The position numbers were made by a program, and so were the translations under genes. The notes under the pieces were generated by a model. That model searched no databases. It had not been told where the DNA came from and saw only the letters and a list, made by a program, of their open reading frames with translations. From Mytilus galloprovincialis (taxonomy: Eukaryota; Mollusca; Bivalvia; Mytilida; Mytilidae), in assembly GCF_965363235.1 (NCBI RefSeq), contig NC_134843.1, positions 48,789,535-48,853,534 on the forward strand: 64,000 bases of DNA, given 5' to 3'. Each line of letters starts with the position of its first letter. Position 1 is the stretch's first letter. Below, in pieces: positions 49,801-64,000 of this stretch.

Positions 49801-52800
49801 GTTGAAACATTGAATGCCAATGGATTTTATGCTTCTTAAAATAAAGTGCGACGCTATCTAATGTGTTGCCAACCATGAAATTGAGCGAATTCAAGATAGT
49901 GTGTACTTCTCGTATGATGTTTCCCCAGCATCTTTGCAGACAAGCATATTGATGTCATCACACCTTCCTAAACCCCCTTATAGATCTCTGTTAAATCTTG
50001 GATGAATTGATAGGGATGGTTTGAAGCTGGTAATTTTTAGGAACAAATGTCTTCGGACTTCCTACAATACCTTGTCTGTACTTGTAAAGAAAAACTCAAA
50101 ATAACGTGTTTGCTTTGAGCAGAACCTTTCATGTGCAGACCTGTGGCCATGAGTGAAATGTGTAGAAATATTAAAACATGTCAAAATGTTAGAAATTATT
50201 ATAAATTAAGGAATGTATCTCCCTAATGCAAAGCTCTGATTCATTTCACTGATTTGGCTATACTTTTCGGAACTTTTGGATTATAGCTCTTCATCTTTAA
50301 TATAAGCTTTGGATGTCACATATTTTGGCCACGAGCATCACTGAAGAGATATGTATTGTCGGAATGCGCATCTGGTGCAGAAAAAATGGTACCGTTATTG
50401 TTATTGTGACAGTTGATGAAAATGAACATGATGGAGATAAGGGTTGATTTGGTATAAAAGCTTGTTGCACTGGTACACACGAATCTAGTCCTGAGGTTAG
50501 GGGATCGTTGGCCTTAAAAAGTTAAAACCCGCCACTATCTGTATGTGTCAGTTTTAAGATACGAGACGGTAATGCAGTGTTTGTCGTTTGTTTCTATATA
50601 CTATATTGGTTTCTTTATTATTTATTTTGTACATTAATCAGGCCGTTAGATTTTTTGTTTGTTTTACATTATTCGTTTCGGGAATTGAAGACTTTGCAGT
50701 ATGACTTTTACTCATTGTTGAAACCCGTACGGGTTCTATAATTGTTTTATGTCTCATTTGGTCTCATTTGGAGAGTTGTCTCATTTGCAATCATATCATA
50801 TCTTCTTTTTTTATATGGAATACTTTTGAAGTCTGTGGTACGTTGCAAGGGAAAAAAGGGGGGATATAGTTATAAAACCTATAATGTAATAGATAGTAAC
50901 CAGAGTTAATTACACATCAAAAGATAATACTATGGTAGCAGTAATAATTGTGAAGAAAAAAACAAAAAGCAACGAGTAGTCTATAAAAAAACCTGAAGTA
51001 TCCGCAAATTCAATTTGAGGTCATATTTGACTGTAGTGTTCTATGGCTTTGGTTTGATACCTCACCAAATATGATAGTTTAAAAAATAATTTTAAAGTAT
51101 TGTCCTGCATGACACTTGATTTTTACCTGAAATTGATATTTTTCTAAGGTTTAGGTGCTCTTAACATTTAATAGGTTGAAAACTTGATTTTTGAAGTTTT
51201 GTTTATATAACGTCGTTTTAGGACTTTTTTTGATAAAAAAAATCTCTATGATTAAGGTTTATGTATAAAAACAAACATTACTAAAGCCAGAATAGTATCA
51301 TTTGTATTTAGGTAGAGTTTAGAAATAGAAAAAAATGTCAAAATTGAAACCCACCCAAATTTTCACAAATTTTTACATATGACTTTTGACCTCAATTTAA
51401 AAAAAATGTGACCATATCAAGTCCTGACGACAGGAACATTCTTATAGTACATGATTTCCTCTTTCCAATGATATATTATGTAGGTGTGTGTTCGGTGGGG
51501 AGATTAAATTCCAAAAAATCTGCTTTCAGTCACCGCACTAATAGTCATAACATAAAAAATCAAAAACTGCAAATTGACACATACAATTTGTATCCTTAAT
51601 GTAAATTGTATCATGGTATTCACATTTATTTTGTGTATTTAACAGATAACTGTACAAACTGTTGGTATGGATGTGACCAAATGACCGGTAATTGTTCAGG
51701 ACAATGTAGCCATGGTCATTACAGTTACAAGTGTGAAAAGGAATGTCCGTCCTGCTATGATTGCAATAAGACTACTGGAGACTGTACTGCATGCCGGAAT
51801 AGACACTATGGATCTAAGTGTGAATATAAATGTCCTGAACATTGTATGGTTGGATGTTACATTTCTGGAAAATGCTATGTTTGTAATGAAGGCTATTGGG
51901 GGACATTCTGTAATCTTACATGTCCTTCGCCCCATTGCAGAAATGGATGCGAAAGATATACTGGAAATTGTACAGCCTGGGGTTGCTACGGTGGATTCTG
52001 GGGAAATGAATGCAACAGAACTTGTCCTCAAAACTGCTGATACCCTGATGGTAACGGATTTTGTCATCAACCACACGGTACGTGTCAGACATGTGAATCG
52101 GGATACAGTGGAAGCAGATGCACTGAACGATGCAATTACGAAAAATGCAGTTTGTGTCAATTTGATGTGACCACCTGTTACAATTGTGTTGATGGATGGC
52201 ATGGAGACCATTGTGATAAGAAATGCCCTTCTCATTGTAGCACGAAAAGTTGCTTGCAGCATACTGGAAAATGTCGCAAATGTCAAAATGGATTTTACGG
52301 TCCATACTGTGATGGCATGTGTCGCACCACATGTGACACATGTTCTGATGCCTTTACATGTGACACGTGTAAACCTGGTTTTCATGGTGAAAATTGTCAA
52401 GAATTGTGTGAAAACAATTGTAAAACCTGTCGGCGTGACGGAAAATGCAAAACGTGTAAGAATGGATACTTTGGTGACGGGTGTAGTTGTCGTATTTCGG
52501 AATGTACCAATGTCACAAATGACTTATGTACTGATTGTAAAAAAAGTATTGGTTGGTATCCACTTAAAAACGGTTGCTGCCCTTGCAGCGAACATTGCAT
52601 ACGTAATAACAATGGGCCACTTTGCAATCAGACGGGTTGTATAAATGGATGTGCAGAAAAATACTATGGTGATCACTGCATAGAAACTTGTAGCGATAAT
52701 TGCGCCGAAGGTAATTTTTCAGCTTGTAATAATGAAACGGGATCATGCGAGAAGGGTTGTAAGCATGGCTGGCATCTTCCAATGTGTGACTTCAATTGTT

Positions 52801-54552
52801 CCTTACACTACCCTCACTGCAAAAATTGCCATGAATATACGGACAGAAATAACGAGAATCCACGAGCTACTTGCCATATATGTAAATCTGGACATTATAG
52901 CGAATTTCTTACAAGTTTCTGTAAACCTTGTGAAAACTGTATTGACGACGAATGTGATGGTGCAATAGGTTTCTGTACTAAAGGTTGTCGTCAGGGTTGG
53001 TATGCCAAAAGAACTAGGTATCTTTGCGAAAATTATTGCAGTGAAAATTGTGCTGATAGAATGTGTGACGGCATAGGTGGTGCTTGTATAAATGGTTGTG
53101 GCCTAGAGTTTTATGGGAAGCACTGCGAAACGGAATGTCCTAAAGAATGTCTTAGTGCTACATGTAAAAATTCGACTGGAGACTGCACGATTGGTTGTAA
53201 TCTAGGATTTTACGGATACAGATGTAATTCTACATGTCAATCAAGATGCGGTCACCAAGGATGTAATCAAGAAAATGGTCACTGCAAAGGTACGGATAGT
53301 TCATTCATTTTATGTTTATCCCTATGTGTACTAAGCTCCACTTTTATCTAAAACGACTTGATATCGTGCAAAGAAGATATGATACCAACTGGAATGCTAA
53401 TATAACAAAACAAATCGAACTCCAAGAAAAATTCATAACAGAAGGTTCTTTATCAAAATGCAAAATCAAAGCTCAAACACATTAAAACGAACATAAAACA
53501 ACTTTTATATTCCTGACTTGGTTAAATGTCCTCGACCACAACATACATTTATCAGGTCAAGAGCAATAACTCCAATGATTCAATTTTCTTTTAAACTTTT
53601 TCATACAAATCCGGCAACAAGCATAAGCGTGTACATATTTTAAATAAACATTACTAGTACTCCTGTCAAAAAGGTTGATCGACGCTGATAATCGATCCAA
53701 GATTTGTAACGACAAAGCTGTGACATAAATTTCATAAAAAGTTTAAAATTTAGGAGCCCTTGAAAGCTCTTAAAGAGCTTTTTTTTCTTTGCCATTTTAC
53801 ATTTCATGTCACATTACTCACGAAAACGAGTTGATCGGCGCTGAATATTGAATTTATCCAAAACTGCCCAAAAAAAAAATTTGGATGTAAATTCATGAAT
53901 ATCGGATATGCAAAATTGTGATCGCTAACTATGTGTTTTTTTTTCATAATTATTTACATTTCTACATTTGCAATTTTTTTTAGACTTCTTTGTAAATATT
54001 ATCTACAGCGAATCAAGTTGTATATATTATATCTATAATAATCTTTGCTTTAATTTTAGTTTACACTATTTTTTAGAAATATCATTTACACTGAGATCAA
54101 CATGTTTTCTATTAAATGTAACACTAGTATAGTATAGTATTGAACACACAATATACTTGTACTTTTAGAATAAACAGTAAATTACAGGACAGACTATGAA
54201 ATCCTCCATCACATATAACTGACATCTACTACTATAATTACATGAATTATGCCCTAGCTCGTCCGGGATAGATTGAAATTATAAATTATATAAACCTGTT
54301 CTGGTCCACAAGAGACAACGTAAGATTGGGGTAATTGTTATGTTTCTTTCATTTTACTACAATATGTGTATTCTCTTTGCAGACTGTATTAGTGGCTTCT
54401 ATGGTAACCAATGTAGACAGAAATGTAACAGTACATGTGAATCCGGTTTATGCGACTTCATTACTGGGTTCTGCTTGCATGGTTGTACGAGTGGTTGGGA
54501 AGGGGTATTTTGTGAAGGTGATTACATCAAAACTGAGTGCGTTAGCAAATGA
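46777..54552 (+). CDS. Secreted multi-EGF (MEGF/SREC-like) protein with in-frame TGA
   Basis: Exon 1 (46777-46891) encodes a signal peptide (about residues 1-24) and leaves in phase 1. Exon 2 (51646-53289) is a single 1644-base exon of EGF-like repeats with cysteines and glycines in the G-x-C-x3-C...GF/Y-x-G-x2-C order. Exon 3 (54385-54519 or to the stop at 54552) adds another repeat. Phase 1 borders agree. Such proteins (MEGF10, SREC, nimrod-like) act in cell-surface recognition or as secreted matrix factors. No transmembrane segment is seen in the window, so the gene either ends at 54552 or continues. A TGA at 52038-52040 interrupts the otherwise open frame. The gene is therefore either a pseudogene, a variant allele, a sequence error or, less likely, a recoded TGA. 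Confidence 0.8.
47170..47325 (+). repeat. Family D retroelement tail
   Basis: It shares tagccatggcgttgtcagtt and ccctttggtatctttcgtcc-type strings with 30985-31075. Confidence 0.6.
49600..49950 (+). pseudogene. Transposon protein remnant
   Basis: Broken frames encode LALQMYREFGSKHLVETLN and, after a stop, VRRYL. I recall similar wording from proteins of mollusc transposons; the family was not checked. Stops and shifts show that it is dead. Confidence 0.4.
50322..50402 (+). repeat. Dispersed repeat, family A'
   Basis: It reads ggccacgagcatcactgaag to aaatggtaccgtt and matches 36113-36187. Confidence 0.6.
50590..50815 (+). repeat. Dispersed repeat, family B
   Basis: It contains ggccgttagattttt, ctcattgttgaaacccgtac and agttgtctcatttgcaatca. 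Confidence 0.6.
51646..53289 (+). CDS. EGF gene exon 2 (about 14 EGF-like repeats, in-frame TGA at 52038)
   Basis: The acceptor gtgtatttaacag is only 108 bases from the right end of a transposon. The frame is open before and after the TGA, with the cysteine pattern continuing across it without a shift. The donor is AAAG|GTACGG. Confidence 0.85.
53410..53530 (+). repeat. Dispersed repeat, family E (diverged)
   Basis: It shares atcaaagctcaaacacatta and tatattcctgacttgg with the other copies. Confidence 0.5.
54385..54552 (+). CDS. EGF gene exon 3
   Basis: The acceptor tattctctttgcag begins a codon-phase-compatible repeat (GFYGNQC, GFCLHGC, GWEGVFC). A donor GAAG|GTGATT at 54519/54520 is possible; otherwise the frame stops at 54552 after TECVSK. 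Confidence 0.75.
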   Translation, partial: CISGFYGNQCRQKCNSTCESGLCDFITGFCLHGCTSGWEGVFCEGDYIKTECVSK

Positions 54553-55019: not shown

Positions 55020-55848
55020 GATACAGTATTTCCATGATAAAACATACATTTGATAATGCATTTTAGTAAATAATTGATAATTTACTAGTAGTAGTGTAGT
55101 ATCACTGAACACCCAAAGCCCCTTGAGTGTGAGTGCATAATTATAACCCCCACCCCTTTTCAAATGGGGCCCTAAATATGAGGGGGTTATAAAATATTGG
55201 GGTCAAAGTTTTTTTTCTTTTTAAAAATAAGAAGGGGTTATAAATATTTTGAGGTGAAAGTGTAAGCACTTTATAAATGTTCACTTTTTAAACACTCTAA
55301 TAATACACTGATGCAATGCGAACCTTCACACCCTATTTTGAATAACTGTCACTCCTTATAGATTTACACTTAAAAGCATTAGCTACATAAACAGATGTTT
55401 TAACAAACAAAAAGAGATAACTATATCTGGTTGCAATGTCGAACATACTTTCGAAAGAAAGGAGAACTGTAAGTAAATGTTAAAAGAATCCAACATATCT
55501 TTCAATTGATGCATGCTTCGGTTATTTTTAATGATGTACCTTTTTTTATTATTTGAAGGTTCAATTTTTACCAGGAGAAGAAATAAAGAAAACACATCAC
55601 TTGATAGCTTGGTCCTTTGCATACCGACAAGCAAGGAAAGGTCATTGGATACAGTTTGCAATTGATCACCATCGTTTTAAAAGACGTATTCACACGACTG
55701 AGACGATAATTACACCTATTTTGTCTCCAGAACATAGATTGAAAATATACAACTTAATTACATTTAATATACACCATACACACTATAACCCCAAAAATTT
55801 AGAATAATAGTTTTTACCATCATTGTGACACTCCCAGTATTTAAATAG
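55020..55848. other. Left border region of the Polinton, no firm gene
   Basis: A plus frame at 55553-55807 (84 codons, no ATG start) and an overlapping minus frame have no recognisable content. Facing copies of ataaccccc occur near 55138 and 55181. The terminal repeat probably lies here. Confidence 0.4.
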
Positions 55849-55856
55849 TATAAAAT
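55849..55856 (+). promoter_or_regulatory. TATA box of the CARD-PC4 gene
   Basis: The string tataaaat stands 63 bases before the ATG at 55912. This spacing is nearly the same as for the next gene. Confidence 0.6.
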
Positions 55857-55911: not shown

Positions 55912-56730
55912 ATGCAGAAAGAACACAAAGATTCTCTTCAGCGTAATTACGTGAAATTGGTTAAAGAAACGCCGGTGGATGTTGTAACAGACCATCTATA
56001 CCAGGCTGGAATACTTACTGACGAATTGAAGGAAGATATTTTACAACAGTCGAATTCGTATTCAAAAACTAGACAGCTGATATCTACTATTCAGAGAAGA
56101 GGTGCACAAGCATTCGAAAGTTTTTGCTCTGCTCTTACTTTAGAGGGAAAATCAAATCTGGTTAATCTTTTGAAAAGTTCAATAACTGATACTTCAGGAG
56201 TGAGCAAAAATCGATGTATGTTACCTATAGGTGGAGACATATTTGTTGTTCCTAACGAATGGTGTGATAAATTGTTGATCCATATTCGTAAATACGAGAA
56301 AAACTCCACAGGTGCTTATATTCCAACCAAAAAAGGAATAGCTTTGAATTTACCACAATGGGTGCTTTTGGAAATGTATGCTAGTGACATAGATGATGCT
56401 ATAGGTCAGATGATTGATGATGTTGACGGAAATCCCGAAATGACATTTCATCTTGGTAAAGGTGTGTACGTTACTGTGAATAGAATATATCCAACCGTAG
56501 ACGTGCGACAGCGTTGGATGATTCCCAATTCAAGCCAAGTTGTTCCAACAAAGAAAGGTATTTCTTTAACATACGATAAGTGGGAAGCTCTTAAAGGAAC
56601 ATTTACTGAAGTAAGACAGGTTGTACCAGAACTGGAAAACATTGTTCCTTGTATTTTAGGAGAAGATCACCAAGTACAAGAGAGCATGTTAAACTGTTCA
56701 AGTTGTAATCCATTCGGGGAAATTTTGTAA
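55912..56730 (+). CDS. CARD domain fused to two PC4-like domains (Polinton accessory protein)
   Basis: The product has 272 residues, no intron and an ATG start. Residues about 5-92 read as a CARD (death-fold) domain: helices with VVTDHLYQAGILTDE, then RRGAQAFESFCSAL, the typical closing signature. Residues about 105-168 and 176-242 read as two PC4-like domains, the single-strand DNA-binding fold of transcription coactivator p15. Both have the TKKGI-x-L-x4-W core, followed by a D-I-D-D-A-type helix in the first. The C-terminus has a C-x2-C. CARD domains mediate caspase and innate-immune adaptor assembly, so a role in altering host cell death or immune signalling is possible. The PC4 part would suggest DNA binding or transcription control. 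Both roles are inferred. It is not part of the usual Polinton core. Confidence 0.75.
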   Translation: MQKEHKDSLQRNYVKLVKETPVDVVTDHLYQAGILTDELKEDILQQSNSYSKTRQLISTIQRRGAQAFESFCSALTLEGKSNLVNLLKSSITDTSGVSKNRCMLPIGGDIFVVPNEWCDKLLIHIRKYEKNSTGAYIPTKKGIALNLPQWVLLEMYASDIDDAIGQMIDDVDGNPEMTFHLGKGVYVTVNRIYPTVDVRQRWMIPNSSQVVPTKKGISLTYDKWEALKGTFTEVRQVVPELENIVPCILGEDHQVQESMLNCSSCNPFGEIL

Positions 56731-56739
56731 ACAGCTGTG

Positions 56740-56747
56740 TATAAAAG
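56740..56747 (+). promoter_or_regulatory. TATA box of the membrane PC4 gene
   Basis: The string tataaaag lies 61 bases before the ATG at 56801, just after the stop of the CARD-PC4 gene. Confidence 0.6.
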
Positions 56748-56800: not shown

Positions 56801-57325
56801 ATGATGTCAAGAACAGTATCATGTGAGACTGGATTAGTTGATAAAACTGAGATGCCACCTATAACGTTTTCTATGGGAGGTAGAATACCATCTCAGTCAA
56901 GTGTGGTTTCAAATATATCGTCAATATATGAAAAATACACCATGCATATAAACATTATAAAATGGACTGGAGTCGTTGTTCTACTGGCATTAATGTCTAC
57001 AAGTTTAGCTTTGACCAGTGGAATGATTAAGAATAGTGCGCATTATAACTATACAGACTGTAAAAAGATCAAAGGAGCAGAAGATTATCAGAGCAGTGGA
57101 ATCAACAACATATCATGTGGATATCTAAAACAGTTTGATTTACCAGAACAATATAAAGTGACTATCTGCACCCACCAAAAACAAGTTTGGATAGGTATTC
57201 GACATTTCATCGGAAATATAACAAGTGGCATATTTTTAAACAAAAGACAATGGAATTACCTACTGAGAATAAGATCAACTATTAACCAAGCCTTGAAAAG
57301 AGCCGACAATGTGAACAGATCATAG
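56801..57325 (+). CDS. Membrane protein with PC4-like C-terminal domain
   Basis: The frame has no upstream ATG, so the double ATG at 56801 is taken as start (174 residues). Residues about 52-76 form one transmembrane segment (VVVLLALMSTSLALTSG). The N-terminal part is Ser/Thr-rich. The C-terminal part (about 114-166) ends GIFLNKRQWNYLLRI..INQAL, which follows the G-I-x-L-N-x2-Q-W core of PC4. Two cysteines and N-x-S/T sites lie between the membrane segment and the PC4-like part. With this arrangement the PC4-like domain could be outside the nucleus or even lumenal, which would be odd for a DNA-binding fold. I know of no described protein like this; the PC4 call is moderate. Confidence 0.6.
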   Translation: MMSRTVSCETGLVDKTEMPPITFSMGGRIPSQSSVVSNISSIYEKYTMHINIIKWTGVVVLLALMSTSLALTSGMIKNSAHYNYTDCKKIKGAEDYQSSGINNISCGYLKQFDLPEQYKVTICTHQKQVWIGIRHFIGNITSGIFLNKRQWNYLLRIRSTINQALKRADNVNRS

Positions 57326-57587: not shown

Positions 57588-57657
57588 GCAATCAATTAAC
57601 ATTTGAAGAACAAATGTGTTTAAATATCCAACTTACTTTAAAATATCTTTAGTCAGA

Positions 57658-58410
57658 ATGAGTTCATTAAACTATGAGGACTACTTACACAAAATATGGT
57701 ATGATCTAAAACATCCGGCATCATTTACAGGTCCTGATAAACTGTATCGCATAGTAAAAAAAGATGGAAAATTTAAAATAGGAAGACATAAAATAAGGCA
57801 ATGGTTACAGGATCAGGACTCGTACAGTTTATCCAGAAATACAGTGCGTAAGTTCAGAAGAAGTAGATATGTTGTCAACACGATAGACAGTTTATGGGAA
57901 ATAGATTTGGCTCAATTTGATAGCTTTCAGAGTGAAAATTTAGGTGTGAAGTATTTGTTGTTTGTTATTGACGTCTTCTCAAAACATTTGTGGATAGAAA
58001 GCCTGAAAGATAAAACACATAAAAGTGTGCTGAAAGCTTTAAAAAAAATTCTATCTGGAAGCCGAAGACCAACCTCTATCCGTTCTGATTTAGGTAAAGA
58101 GTTTGTCAATAAGTATGTACGCGGTTATCTTTCAAAAGAAGGGATAAACACATACTATTCTCAAAATGAAACCAAGTCAGCTGTTGTGGAGCGAAGTATC
58201 AGAAGTATTAAAACAATCATGTACACATATTTCAGACACAAACAAACGTATAAATACATTGACGTTATACAGGATATGGTGGCGAGTTATAATAAAAGAC
58301 CGCATCGTTCACTAGGTGGATATACCCCGTCCGAAGTGAACAAACAAAACGCAGATGAAGTTCGACTGAGTGCATATTTTGCCCGAAACCCTAGCAAAAA
58401 AAAAAAATGA
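57658..58410 (+). CDS. Polinton integrase, N-terminal and catalytic part
   Basis: The product has 250 residues from the ATG at 57658; the frame is open slightly upstream without an ATG. It is a retroviral-type (rve) integrase with catalytic acidic residues D83 (WEIDLAQF), D144 (IRSDLGKEF) and E178 (AVVERSIRSIK), and an SYNKRPHRSLGG-x-TP block after them. It would insert the element DNA into host chromosomes. The frame ends in a run of 12 A directly followed by TGA at 58408-58410. The usual C-terminal part is in the next frame (58370-58825), so the protein appears split. Confidence 0.88.
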   Translation: MSSLNYEDYLHKIWYDLKHPASFTGPDKLYRIVKKDGKFKIGRHKIRQWLQDQDSYSLSRNTVRKFRRSRYVVNTIDSLWEIDLAQFDSFQSENLGVKYLLFVIDVFSKHLWIESLKDKTHKSVLKALKKILSGSRRPTSIRSDLGKEFVNKYVRGYLSKEGINTYYSQNETKSAVVERSIRSIKTIMYTYFRHKQTYKYIDVIQDMVASYNKRPHRSLGGYTPSEVNKQNADEVRLSAYFARNPSKKKK

Positions 58411-58825
58411 AAAGAAGAGAACTAAAGATGAGCAAACAATGTCATCAAAGGGAAAAAAGAAACCAGACAACAGCTTCAAATACAGAGTTAATGATCTGGT
58501 CAGGATTACATTTAAACGTCATCCGTTTCAGAGAGGGTATCAACAGAAATGGACAGAAGAGCTCTTTAAAATTCGACGTCGATATTACCGAGATCGTTTG
58601 CCCACTTACTTACTCAAAGATTTGTTAAATGAAAACATACTTGGTTCCTTCCATCATCCAGAACTTCAGAAGGTTAGAAAAGACGAGAAAAACACGATAT
58701 GGAAAATCGAAAAAATATTAAGAAAGCGGAAACAGAATGGGATTAATCAAGCTTTGGTACGTTGGCTTGGCTACCCCAAAAAATTTGACGCTTGGTTACC
58801 GATGTCTGATATTCAAAACGAATAA
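58370..58825 (+). CDS. Integrase C-terminal part with chromodomain (other frame)
   Basis: The frame overlaps the end of the catalytic part and lies +1 relative to it. Around codons 35-100 it has an SH3-like basic stretch (YRVNDLVRI, QKWTEELFKI), then a chromodomain (WKIEKILRKRK, ALVRWLGYP, DAWLPMSDI). Polinton integrases normally end with a chromodomain, which is thought to guide insertion by reading histone marks. It is therefore the second half of the same protein, separated by a frame change at the 12-A run (58396-58407). A separate start is possible at the ATG at 58439 but less likely. Confidence 0.8.
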   Translation: MHILPETLAKKKNEKKRTKDEQTMSSKGKKKPDNSFKYRVNDLVRITFKRHPFQRGYQQKWTEELFKIRRRYYRDRLPTYLLKDLLNENILGSFHHPELQKVRKDEKNTIWKIEKILRKRKQNGINQALVRWLGYPKKFDAWLPMSDIQNE

Positions 58826-58864: not shown

Positions 58865-59329
58865 ATGAGTATACGCATGGTTCTTAAATCAACAGATGGA
58901 AATCTTCTTTTTGAAAACAACACAGCATGTAACTTTACAATACAACTGGATAGACAAATAGATCTAACAGGATATTGGATGGTGGGGTTGACAGAAATAA
59001 GTATCACGTATAAAGATACTTCGAAGCACATAGAGGATATCTACGTTTATTCAAACATCTGTGAAGAGAGTTTTGTGGGGTCCTCAGAGAAACCCCTTCT
59101 TCGAAAAGTTTACATAAAGAAAGAAACAACGGAGCAATATACTGTAAACAAACAGAAACACTATAAAACAAACTTAATATTTGGCGTCCCCTATTTTGTC
59201 CCTGTACGTCTAGGGCGACTGAACCAAATCCATATCTATATAACTGATGAAATTGGACAACCGAGCTCATTCATCAACAAGAACTGCTGCGTGACACTTC
59301 ATTTAAAAAAGTATCCGTTTCTGCAGTAA
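58865..59329 (+). CDS. Penton-like minor capsid protein (single jelly roll)
   Basis: The product has 154 residues. It begins with a beta-rich stretch, LFENNTACNFTIQL, followed by DLTGYWMVGLTEI, and ends HIYITDEIGQP...VTLHL. This layout is characteristic of Polinton penton-base-like proteins, which form the capsid vertices. Its stop codon overlaps the next start as TAATG (59327-59331), so it is the first gene of a coupled structural block. Confidence 0.78.
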   Translation: MSIRMVLKSTDGNLLFENNTACNFTIQLDRQIDLTGYWMVGLTEISITYKDTSKHIEDIYVYSNICEESFVGSSEKPLLRKVYIKKETTEQYTVNKQKHYKTNLIFGVPYFVPVRLGRLNQIHIYITDEIGQPSSFINKNCCVTLHLKKYPFLQ

Positions 59330-59799: not shown

Positions 59800-61119
59800 A
59801 TGGCTTATTTGAACGATGAAAACACAGACATTAACATACCAATGGAGCTAGATTTATTCGATGAACCTAAAAATCAAGTAGCGATCGACAGGATTTTTTA
59901 TTCAGAAACAAGACCGCTTTCTAACTTTACATCATCAGATGCTTCTACAGTTGAATTTTTCATTTCTGGACAAGGTCCTGAATACATGGATTTGAGACGG
60001 AGTAGACTGTACGTTCGTGCAAAGATCGTCAAAGGTGATGGTAGTGCCTTTGATGACACGGATACGACAAGTATTGTTAATTTACCACTCCAAGCCATGT
60101 GGTCACAAATCGATGTGTATATGAACAATAAACTTGTCTCCGTGAGCACTTCAAACTACCCTTGGAAAGCTTACCTTAAGACGATTTTGAACAGTGGTTC
60201 AGACGAGCAGAAATCACAACTCCAGTCACAGCTTTTTATGAAAGATATCGGCAATTTAGCTTCTACAGATGGGAAATCAGGAGCAAACACAGGTCTAGTC
60301 CTTCGTCGAGATTTTATCAAGGCAAGCAGAGAATTCGAAATGGAAGGACCGCTTTTTGAAGATATATTTTCATTAGACCATCATTTAATTCAAGGTGTTG
60401 ACCTCTCGATTAAGTTGTATCGTACTACCAATCCGTTTTTTGTCATATCAGGTGAAGATGGTGCTGCCTACAAGTTAGAGCTATTAGACTGTGTTTACAA
60501 GGCCTGTAAAATTAAAGTCGATCCTGGTATCCTCGTTAATCATATGAAACAGATCGAAATAAAACCTGTACGCTACTATTTCCAACGTACTGAAGTCAAA
60601 AGGAACACCATCAACAAATCCTCAAGTGAGTTCATTTGGGACAATCTATTTACCATTCGCCCTAGTACTCTGGTGGTTGGTTTAATATCACAAGATAGCG
60701 GTAACGGTTCTTATGGGACAAATCCGTTCTTTTTTAATCACTACAACGCCACTGACGTAGGTCTATATGTCAATGGAGAGAGCGTTCCGTCAAGACCCTT
60801 AAAACTGGACTTTGGAGATAATCGACAATATGCAGTGGCATACACTAATTTATTTGAAGCCTGTGAAAAGTTAAATAAAGATGCCGGACTTACCATTTCC
60901 AGAGAAGATTTTGGTAAGGGTTACACCTTATATGCTTTCCAATTGGACCCAAGCGGATTGGGAGAGGACTATATAAACTTGGTTAAACATGGAAATGTGA
61001 GACTTGAAATGAAATTCAGTACTGCACTTCCTACAGCCGTTACCTGTATTGCCTTCGGAGTATTTGGTTCGTTTCTGGAAATAGACAAATCACGTAACGT
61101 TCGTTACGTGCAATCATGA
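59800..61119 (+). CDS. Major capsid protein (double jelly roll, Polinton type)
   Basis: The product has 439 residues and is intact. It starts with IDRIFYSETRPLSNF-like text and continues with GQGPEYMDLRRSRLYV. It has the W-SQIDVYMNNKLVS and YPWKAYLKTILNSGSD blocks, a central FFQRTEVKR segment, GLYVNGESVPSRPL and ends in EIDKSRNV. These blocks match the family often annotated in invertebrates as F54H12.2-like, identified as Polinton/adintovirus hexon. It would form the pseudo-hexagonal capsomers. The start overlaps the upstream stop (TAATG) and its stop overlaps the protease start (ATGA). Confidence 0.85.
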   Translation: MAYLNDENTDINIPMELDLFDEPKNQVAIDRIFYSETRPLSNFTSSDASTVEFFISGQGPEYMDLRRSRLYVRAKIVKGDGSAFDDTDTTSIVNLPLQAMWSQIDVYMNNKLVSVSTSNYPWKAYLKTILNSGSDEQKSQLQSQLFMKDIGNLASTDGKSGANTGLVLRRDFIKASREFEMEGPLFEDIFSLDHHLIQGVDLSIKLYRTTNPFFVISGEDGAAYKLELLDCVYKACKIKVDPGILVNHMKQIEIKPVRYYFQRTEVKRNTINKSSSEFIWDNLFTIRPSTLVVGLISQDSGNGSYGTNPFFFNHYNATDVGLYVNGESVPSRPLKLDFGDNRQYAVAYTNLFEACEKLNKDAGLTISREDFGKGYTLYAFQLDPSGLGEDYINLVKHGNVRLEMKFSTALPTAVTCIAFGVFGSFLEIDKSRNVRYVQS

Positions 61120-61586
61120 ATGGATACGAGTTAGAATGTGCCATCAGATCAAATCCGTGTTTACAAAATTTAGTGAAAGGAGTGTATGCTAGAAACAGCT
61201 TACCAACGGATGATATGACACAGTACCCTAGTGCCTATATCGTTAACAGCGACAGCGCCGATCGACCAGGAGAACATTGGTTAGGCATCGTGTTCAAGAA
61301 CAAATCTGAAGGGATGTTTTTTGATAGTTTCGGGAACCGGCCAGAATATTATGGTGAAGAATTAAATCTCTTTTTGAACTCTAACGTGAGAAAGTACGAA
61401 TGTTTTAATGTTCAAGTGCAGTCGAAGAACTCTTCTCACTGTGGTTTATTTGTTTTAACTTTTTTAATGTTGATTGTATGTTTAAATTATTCATTAGAAG
61501 ATATTGCATGTTTTTTTCATTCAGATGATGATGTTAACGACCGTATTGTTCTTAATTTTGTTAATACGTATTTTAGTTTTTGTTAA
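61116..61586 (+). CDS. Adenain-like cysteine protease
   Basis: The product has 156 residues. The catalytic set can be seen: His54 (GEHWLGIV), Asp70 (MFFDSFG), a Gln near 100-102, and Cys109 (SSHCGLFVLTFL). This is the order of the adenovirus protease/Ulp1 (C5/C48) fold. It is expected to process capsid and core proteins during virion maturation. The ATG overlaps the capsid stop in ATGA. The stop TAA overlaps an AATAAA signal at 61585-61590, so the structural transcript probably ends here. Confidence 0.85.
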   Translation: MNGYELECAIRSNPCLQNLVKGVYARNSLPTDDMTQYPSAYIVNSDSADRPGEHWLGIVFKNKSEGMFFDSFGNRPEYYGEELNLFLNSNVRKYECFNVQVQSKNSSHCGLFVLTFLMLIVCLNYSLEDIACFFHSDDDVNDRIVLNFVNTYFSFC

Positions 61587-61665: not shown

Positions 61666-62334
61666 ATGGAAACGTCGACAACGCTTCTACCTTTCCAAAG
61701 TCCATGCACTTGTATGGTATCGGGTGCAACGCAAAGTGGGAAAACAACTTTTGTTATGAAACTACTAAAACATTCATCAACCATGTTCAAGATACCTCCG
61801 GTGAGAATCGTCTATTGTTATACTGAGTTTCAACCTACTTTAGAACAAGCTGAAAATACAATACCCAATTTCGACTTGCACGAGGGGTTACCATCTCGAA
61901 GTGATCTCATTGAATGGACAAACCCTGAGAAGCACACGGTCATTGTTCTTGATGACATGATGAGATTAATAAGCAAAAGCGACGACGCTTTACATCTGGT
62001 TACGGTTCTATCGCACCATCGAAACTGTTCTGTGATTTACATCACACAAAACCTGTTTGAAAAAGGAACACATTTTAGATCCATAAGTTTAAATATTCAT
62101 ATATTCGTCCTGATGGCTAATAACAGGGATAAAAAACAACTCCTTGCCTTTGCAAGTCAGGCTTTTCCAGGTGAAGTGAATTATTTCAAAGAGGCGTACG
62201 AAAAAGCTATTAGCTCTGTTTCAATTGGTGGATATCTCATATGTGACTTATCACCGTATACGGATAAAAGGTATCGGTTACGAACGTCGATCTTCCCATC
62301 TGATGACGTCACAGTAGTGTATACACCAAAGTGA
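61666..62334 (+). CDS. Genome-packaging ATPase (FtsK/HerA, A32-like)
   Basis: The product has 222 residues. Walker A is GATQSGKT at residues 20-27 and Walker B is TVIVLDDMM with D96/D97. The VIYITQNLFEKG segment follows, typical of the FtsK-HerA packaging ATPases of double-jelly-roll viruses. It would pump DNA into the capsid. Its stop overlaps AATAAA (62334-62339). Confidence 0.85.
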   Translation: METSTTLLPFQSPCTCMVSGATQSGKTTFVMKLLKHSSTMFKIPPVRIVYCYTEFQPTLEQAENTIPNFDLHEGLPSRSDLIEWTNPEKHTVIVLDDMMRLISKSDDALHLVTVLSHHRNCSVIYITQNLFEKGTHFRSISLNIHIFVLMANNRDKKQLLAFASQAFPGEVNYFKEAYEKAISSVSIGGYLICDLSPYTDKRYRLRTSIFPSDDVTVVYTPK

Positions 62335-63292: not shown

Positions 63293-64000
63293 TCAATATC
63301 CGTAAGGAATGGTGTCGTAATTGTCTAGTAAAACTCGTTTATTGTATGTGATACAGTACTTTTTGTTTTCCTCTCGACTATATATTTTTCTGTGCGTTGC
63401 AAGGCGGGTGATTTTGCTTGGGTTAGTCAGTGTTTTATGCACACTCCTATCACGAGAAATCATGCTTTTAATAGCATCGAAATTCACTATGTTTGAATTC
63501 GTAAAATTCAGAGTAAAACCTTTCACCTTGCATGTTTCTGTACTTAAAGTTCTGTATGCATAGTTCTTAGGGCCTCCACATACAAATTCCACAATGTGAC
63601 CTTCCTCTGGTGATATTTCGGACGTCAGTTCGCCAAGGTAATTTCCAAGTGTTGGCTCTTTTGTGCCTTTACGAGACAAATACACACAGCTGTCGGTATC
63701 GTAATATAAACATTCACTACCGACTAAGTCTAACACCGAGTACAGTTTTAACCGTGCCCACATTGTGGTGAATATTGCAATGAAAATGTTCGTTTTTACA
63801 TCCACAGGTGGAAATAGTGAGTTTTGTGACCATTCTAATTGTATGGTATCGTTCGAAACTATGTGAAAGTTTTCTACCATTTTCGTCGGATCTGACAACA
63901 CCTGAAAGAATTTATCACATTCCGTTTCGTGGAAGTATGAATGCCTCTTTAGGATCAGTCTCTGGCCAAATTTTCCCCAAAAACTGTTAAGACATAACTT
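63293..64000 (-). CDS. Family B (protein-primed) DNA polymerase, C-terminal part
   Basis: The frame is open from the window edge to a TGA at 63293-63295 (235 codons seen). Close to the edge it has LCLNSFWGKFG (polymerase motif B) and further on YYDTDS (motif C, catalytic Asp). These are followed by KNYAYR and CKVKGF, typical of thumb regions in Polinton polymerases. It replicates the element. The N-terminal exonuclease and most of the palm lie outside the window. The earliest in-window codons are part of the gene, not a start. Confidence 0.88.
   Translation of the reverse strand, partial: KLCLNSFWGKFGQRLILKRHSYFHETECDKFFQVLSDPTKMVENFHIVSNDTIQLEWSQNSLFPPVDVKTNIFIAIFTTMWARLKLYSVLDLVGSECLYYDTDSCVYLSRKGTKEPTLGNYLGELTSEISPEEGHIVEFVCGGPKNYAYRTLSTETCKVKGFTLNFTNSNIVNFDAIKSMISRDRSVHKTLTNPSKITRLATHRKIYSREENKKYCITYNKRVLLDNYDTIPYGY

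Follow-up and report, generated by a model that had tools for sequence, protein, structure and literature searches.

A CARD joined to two PC4-type domains in an intact gene of a mussel Polinton

A single gene near the left end of a Polinton-type element in the mussel Mytilus galloprovincialis encodes a CARD, two PC4-type domains and a conserved C-H-C-C tail; the gene is under selection and the element has both of its TIRs. We propose that the product is an element-encoded ssDNA- or promoter-binding protein whose CARD may act as a decoy against RAIDD/caspase-type death signalling, a reading drawn from sequence comparison to which we give slightly less than even weight. The finding connects virus-like giant transposons, initiator-caspase-type CARDs and PC4/TBP transcription factors, which are usually separate. 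It provides an intact protein of small size that can be used to ask whether animal Polintons act as viruses managing host cell death, and an entry to what serves Polintons as ssDNA-binding or transcription factor.

The fusion protein and its two PC4 repeats

The window, that is, the whole 64,000-nucleotide stretch of DNA analysed here, covers G000:C6:48789535-48853534 of the 1.385-Gb M. galloprovincialis genome. Its features are as follows (window positions, strand in brackets):

55084..55089 (unstranded): TSD ACTAGT; the same six bases follow the right TIR
55090..55405 (+): left TIR, starting 5'-AG; partner at the right end, 98.1% agreement over 316 columns
55849..55855 (+): TATA box, 63 nt upstream of the fusion ATG
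55912..56730 (+): CARD-PC4-PC4-CHCC fusion gene, 272 aa; Pfam and PDB sequence matches
55936..56175 (+): CARD (residues 9-88), RAIDD/caspase-9/CED-3-like; Pfam, profile against PDB
56215..56409 (+): PC4 domain 1 (about residues 102-166); W117 is the F77-type aromatic, E129 is acidic at the W89 position
56443..56637 (+): PC4 domain 2 (about residues 178-242); W202 is the W89-type aromatic, F77 loop shortened with Y193 close by
56650..56727 (+): C247-x5-H253-x8-C262-x2-C265 tail, putative zinc site; family alignment
56801..57325 (+): ORF2, 174 aa from the ATG at 56801; hydrophobic stretch (by eye) and probable degenerate PC4-like domain
57616..58410 (+): Polinton integrase core (rve); Pfam; frame shifts close to its end, at a run of A
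58370..58825 (+): chromodomain part of the integrase, in another frame; Pfam
58865..59329 (+): minor capsid (penton) candidate ORF, by position only; without a Pfam match
59800..61119 (+): candidate for the double-jelly-roll major capsid; weak match (E 0.0037), under the cut-off
61116..61586 (+): adenain-like protease (Peptidase_C5); Pfam 2.3e-6
61666..62334 (+): packaging ATPase candidate (P-loop), the element marker; weak family matches
63293..64000 (-): DNA polymerase B, C-terminal part; PF03175 below cut-off; leaves the window

The fusion frame runs from ATG to TAA without requiring an intron, and is real and intact, as expected from the initial annotation, which had described one intron-free gene containing a CARD and two PC4-type domains. 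Both domain assignments hold: the CARD scores 55.5 bits in Pfam against a cut-off of 23.9 (E 6e-15), and PC4 scores 62.7 bits against a cut-off of 25 (E 2.3e-17) in two stretches. With profile matches so far over the cut-offs, a chance open reading frame is ruled out. Among PDB sequences, the PC4 part finds matches at 3.4e-7 with the single protein and at 5.5e-16 with the family profile. The caspase-9 CARD is matched at about 1e-4 by the single-protein query, and a 9-row CARD profile matches RAIDD (3.8e-8), caspase-9 (9.4e-8), CED-3 (6.5e-7) and APAF1 (8e-5). By profile comparison, the nearest solved CARDs are those of this initiator-caspase group; the fusion protein differs from its members in that no Pfam death domain, caspase or NB-ARC was found within it.

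A family profile search recovered 57 proteins, 30 of which were aligned with the window protein to give 31 rows. All 31 match PC4 and nine match CARD. The C-terminal tail, which the initial annotation had not included, is strongly conserved in this alignment (C247 in 30/31 rows, H253 in 31/31, C262 in 31/31 and C265 in 30/31).

In the PC4 homodimer, two subunits hold ssDNA, F77 and W89 stack on the bases, and R86 and other residues contact the backbone (PMC4350104, in part). In repeat 1 of the fusion family, the F77 position is aromatic in 31/31 rows and the W89 position acidic in 27/31. In repeat 2, W or F occupies the W89 position in all 31 rows and the F77 column is empty in all 31, with an aromatic residue (Y/F/W) close to it at position 193 in 25/31. 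R86 is kept in both repeats in every row, and a basic residue at position 100 in most rows. The strict stacking pair of F77 and W89 within each domain is found in neither repeat, and strict PC4/SUB1 orthology is not claimed for the fusion protein. Likeness to human PC4/SUB1 and to phage and fungal PC4 lies in the two PC4 domains, the whole-protein score above the Pfam cut-off, R86 in both repeats and at least one stacking aromatic per repeat. However, PC4 is a single homodimerising domain, whereas the fusion protein has two unlike repeats in one chain, together with a CHCC tail and a CARD.

Because the repeats have diverged in a fixed way (W89 lost in the first, the F77 loop shortened in the second), the alignment suggests a domain duplication after which the two repeats took on different roles within a single asymmetric, intramolecular PC4 'dimer', repeat 2 perhaps being the stronger binder. 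DNA binding of the repeats may be weak or altered. The simpler notion that each repeat keeps exactly one stacking residue is weakened by the aromatic at position 193, which may stand in for F77; the idea of a composite site depends on the alignment.

The Polinton and its copies

The fusion gene comes first in a Polinton of 20,958 bp that has a TIR at each end, the right one ending at G000:C6:48865581, beyond the window, and the TSD on both sides. The left end was revealed by a 99% copy on C11, and the element begins AGTAGTG. This is a clean Polinton-type insertion. A host gene merely beside the element is ruled out, since the left TIR starts 822 nt before the fusion ATG. The integrase core (1.6e-11) and Peptidase_C5, an adenovirus-like cysteine protease, are above the Pfam cut-offs, and the chromodomain is matched at 1.4e-6 in the adjoining frame. 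The two integrase frames meet at a run of 12 A (58396-58407), where the change of frame may reflect decay, slippage, or an assembly or sequencing error. The ATPase candidate has weakly specific Pfam matches (RNA_helicase 2e-4, FtsK 0.014, Pox_A32 0.024). The major capsid candidate, with its below-threshold jelly-roll match, gave no significant PDB sequence match, and the part of PolB within the window (PF03175, E 0.00096, below the curated cut-off; motifs NSxxG and YxDTDS by eye) gave none among PDB sequences.

The Polinton setting near a left end, as first annotated, is thus confirmed by the integrase, chromodomain, protease, TIRs and TSD. The element resembles Polinton/Maverick elements (polintovirus, adintovirus-like) in its RVE integrase with chromodomain, adenain-like protease, P-loop ATPase candidate, PolB end, weak double-jelly-roll match, long TIRs starting 5'-AG, 6-bp TSD and length of 21 kb; it differs from them in carrying CARD-PC4-PC4. 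A search for literature joining Polinton/Maverick with CARD or PC4, mostly outside subscription journals, found nothing, and the terms CARD and PC4 are absent from the main texts of PMC11071308, PMC4028283, PMC3671162, PMC4642659 and PMC10120064 and of a bivalve transposon survey (PMC10294476). The combination was not found described in the literature searched; this is not proof of absence, and adintoviruses may have death-pathway genes.

Immediately before the Polinton, 51606-53351 and 54382-54550 read by eye as EGF-like repeat exons of the host; no Pfam match was found at 52152-53348.

Comparison of the 272-aa protein with the genome gave 54 matches and 13 type-1 fusion loci at 68-100% identity. 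The full frame is open at five of the 13 (C6:48.85 Mb, C11:25.03, C12:23.07, C3:12.74 and C7:39.50); the locus at C8:14.05 is open yet short, and the seven others are partial or broken. Linkage was assessed with two lists, the best 150 of 319 ATPase candidates and the best 150 of 365 CARD candidates. Nine of the 13 fusion loci have an ATPase relative from the best 150 of 319 within 15 kb, lying 5-9 kb downstream on the same strand and 74-100% identical to that of the window; at the other four, none of these 150 was found nearby. The outcome that the initial annotation had set against itself, a gene found only in host context without Polinton neighbours, did not occur. Within 15 kb of an ATPase among the best 150 of 319 lie 25 of the 54 fusion-protein matches. 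The same holds for 11 of the 150 best CARD sites (of 365), where 1000 random shifts gave 0.235 on average and never more than 2. Among the ATPase rows, the weaker ones (about 31-36% identical, many in frames of 300-570 aa) may not all belong to Polintons, and this affects C1:62.26 Mb (34%) among the CARD linkages. Independent support for the linkage comes from another species, Mytilus trossulus, in which gene model P0011 has the same layout: its CARD-PC4 part continues into a stretch matching the antisense strand of PolB in the window (75% over 56 aa).

A second copy with the same TIRs, at G000:C11:59318750-59339635, has an identical ATPase (100%) and a broken fusion frame, and points to recent mobility. 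TIR matches at G000:C11:27225579, 33495816, 23425945 and 73493354 and at C4:86336843, with no second listed TIR nearby, are solo or derived ends.

Selection was estimated for six of the eight loci L023-L030 (L023, L024, L025, L026, L028 and L030, the last nearly a copy of L026), with L027 and L029 left out for their broken frames. In the 10 of 15 pairs in which dN/dS was computable, the CARD gave values of 0.10-0.24 and the two PC4s together 0.05-0.21; synonymous changes were saturated or absent in the remaining pairs. The tail gave 0.04-0.27 where pairs of 29-30 codons could be computed, whereas the 7-codon pairs that involve the truncated L030 gave 0.32-1.2. Identity to the window in seven relatives from among P0002-P0009 is 64-84% for the CARD, 65-83% for the first PC4 and 69-89% for the second, against 27-64% for the linker. 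Judged from these ratios, the CARD is maintained across element copies and is not a decaying passenger, a candidate that dN/dS rules out. In all six type-1 copies examined (of 13 loci), a TATA box precedes the ATG by 62-64 nt.

It is very improbable, in our view, that this is a domesticated or captured host gene without element function, either a passenger or a mussel immune gene. The genome is CARD-rich, with 139 of the 150 listed CARD sites (best 150 of 365) not within 15 kb of a listed ATPase, and copies appear as gene models in some source records, the named relatives of the fusion protein being Mytilus proteins. However, the gene sits within TIRs and TSD without an intron, has kept its TATA spacing in the six copies, has been amplified together with the element, and shows purifying selection from copy to copy. 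Capture from the host had also been raised in the initial annotation; as a bare passenger, a captured gene is disfavoured by the similar purifying selection on CARD and PC4 and by the recurrence of CARDs in other elements.

CARD sites cluster at C5:74-101 Mb, C11:0.3-7 and 79-86 Mb, C7:85-97 Mb and C14:55-71 Mb; judging from the ten loci read on C5 and C7, these clusters probably consist of host exons. A Mytilus edulis record named LZTFL1 (P0005) continues into CARD-PC4-PC4, perhaps because annotation joined LZTFL1 to a nearby element.

Other arrangements of the same domains

Proteins named from Mizuhopecten, Ylistrum and Tegillarca have the double-PC4-CHCC backbone but no recognised CARD, as do unnamed clusters, of which one contains 356 sequences; this suggests that the backbone predates the CARD fusion. 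A second type of fusion (L034, L035 and L036; 345-349 aa) has an extra Cys-containing N-terminal stretch ahead of a divergent CARD (7.1e-6 in L034; 1.3e-3, below cut-off, in L036) and two PC4s. A listed ATPase lies 5 kb from L034 and from L035; none is listed near L036, beside which an ORF reads by eye like an integrase N-terminus. The TATA box of type-2 fusions is at 76 nt (L034, L035), and none was found in L036.

Elsewhere each part has its own gene. A double-PC4 of 169 aa, a CARD-only ORF of 90 aa (5.4e-12) and a TBP-like ORF (1.4e-21) stand in a row at C10:47.79 Mb; the TBP ATG overlaps the end of the CARD ORF, and an ATPase match follows 5.1 kb after the CARD. At C6:17.7 Mb, a CARD (with one stop) and TBP are together, with a double-PC4 about 15 kb off on the other strand. 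At C1:62.26 Mb, which may belong to another kind of element, a 98-aa CARD-only ORF (2.5e-15) has its ATPase-like match 7 kb away. Separate PC4 or CARD ORFs have TATA boxes at 51-53 nt (L031, L033), with none in L037. The element-borne TBP homologues are:

L031:2227-2733 (G000:C10:47794826-47795329): TBP homologue; Pfam TBP 1.4e-21
L032:855-1361; C7:60837073; C2:57674372; C2:57679921; C11:38368931: further TBP homologues

The TBP match starts 1.1-1.6 kb from the double-PC4 match on C10 and at C7:60.84, C2:57.67 and C11:38.37 Mb; the PC4s of the last two contain stops.

These arrangements bear on what the CARD does. It could be an oligomerisation module, with filaments that let the double-PC4 coat ssDNA or promoters cooperatively and leave the host death pathway untouched, a reading we regard as unlikely. 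CARDs polymerise, and CARD and PC4 share one chain in two divergent fusion types, as this reading would have it. It also has a parallel in the protein-primed phage Bam35, which encodes its own SSB with highly cooperative ssDNA binding (PMC8276246, in part). However, the occurrence of the CARD as a separate ORF (in L031 and probably L037) fits a role in trans better, and the CARD retains a RAIDD/caspase-like sequence. We assign a low probability to a pure transcription or replication factor whose CARD only docks another element protein: double-PC4 beside TBP in other elements would suit such a factor, but no second CARD was found by Pfam among the scanned ORFs of the part of the element in the window.

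In the PC4 tree (calculated without L035, a near copy of L034, and with P0035 shortened), types 1 and 2 fall with P0037 and P0045 on one side of a branch with support 98/93, and the separate-gene PC4s fall elsewhere. P0037 and P0045, although grouped with the fusions, have no recognised CARD. An origin of the fusion once inside the type-1 clade, an idea based on a comparison of 40 of the 57 proteins with the window (17 partial or near-copy proteins being dropped), is revised by this grouping of the type-2 L034 and L036; the history may be one fusion with loss or two fusions, or the rows that lack a CARD may be truncated. In a CARD tree of 12 element CARDs, five of ten host exons and two human CARDs, 3/16 inner branches are starred, and holding the element CARDs together costs 15.9 log units (p-AU 0.086), a grouping that is thereby neither supported nor rejected; the tree does not single out a host CARD of origin.

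Frames are disrupted in several copies of the fusion and in the solo CARD at C6:17.7 Mb. Several searches of viral contigs for fusion relatives gave no match; tblastn with the family found one PC4 domain only in 18 viral loci and no relative in a further four. No relative was found among phage records, and a search for CARD-only proteins (like length, shared words) recovered only the known fusion family.

Possible functions and the neighbouring ORF2

The initial annotation had proposed that the fusion might sense or coat element DNA and tune cell death, roles that are inferred. On the decoy reading, the fusion protein would be a Polinton accessory protein, a two-headed adaptor. Its PC4 repeats would pack on each other as one asymmetric 'dimer' and grip ssDNA, either at melted promoters or on the displaced strand of protein-primed replication, or both, while the C-H-C-C tail would bind zinc. 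The element's needs served in this way would be promoter opening and the coating of ssDNA during strand displacement by PolB; the TATA boxes, and TBP beside double-PC4 in other elements, fit the first of these. At the other end, the CARD would engage host CARDs of the RAIDD/caspase-2/caspase-9/APAF1 type as a decoy and block the nucleation of death complexes in cells with an active element, perhaps while fixed on element DNA. A decoy is preferred because of the precedent of GIV-CARD, an iridovirus (ranavirus) CARD-only protein encoded by an early gene, which inhibits apoptosis and lowers caspase-8 and -9 activity (PMC4457926, in part). Both are virus-type CARDs, and the mussel genome has CARD-only ORFs of 90 and 98 aa near ATPase relatives; GIV-CARD, however, has 91 aa and is described in that source as human ICEBERG-like, whereas the fusion CARD is RAIDD/caspase-9-like and joined to DNA-binding domains.

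The opposite sign of action would make the protein a DNA-triggered switch, in which PC4 senses the ssDNA of the replicating element or of a rival virus and clusters the CARD, thereby activating caspases or NF-kB, so that the element would carry a means of suicide or defence. CARDs are capable of activation and not just of blocking: initiator-caspase-type CARDs, to which the nearest relatives of the fusion CARD belong, activate on clustering, and the herpesvirus CARD protein E10 activates NF-kB. The order of CARD and nucleic-acid binder also resembles sensor layouts. We nevertheless think a switch improbable, as a self-propagating element profits little from killing the cell in which it replicates and the virus CARD precedent, GIV-CARD, is inhibitory (PMC4457926, in part).

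The decoy reading can be extended, more tentatively, to a DNA-tethered death-fold adaptor, in which a PC4 pseudo-dimer on melted element DNA would present the CARD and so couple apoptosis control to transcription or replication. The relatives that keep the parts (double-PC4, CARD and TBP) as neighbouring genes would then represent an element-borne module for transcription and death control. If the element does touch both its own DNA and the host's suicide machinery, apoptosis control would be physically linked to element activity. An arms race of this kind could well be followed in the mussel genome, which holds at least 150 CARD sites and numerous ATPase relatives.

ORF2, adjoining the fusion gene and preceded by a TATA box at 56740, 61 nt before its ATG, is probably a second PC4-like gene, likewise additional to the initial annotation. 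Against the PC4 profile it has an hhalign score of 28.1, with none of 103 other open stretches in the window exceeding 19.2, and its last 94 aa reach 26.9, whereas 300 shuffles peaked at 21.1; the probability given by hhalign itself is 17-22%, and Pfam returned no match. ORF2 thus probably has a degenerate PC4-like domain, preceded by hydrophobic residues that probably span a membrane, which would be an unusual setting for a PC4-like protein. The right part of the element also contains a 129-aa ORF at L048:3522-3911 (-) with, by eye, a signal-peptide-like start and several cysteines.
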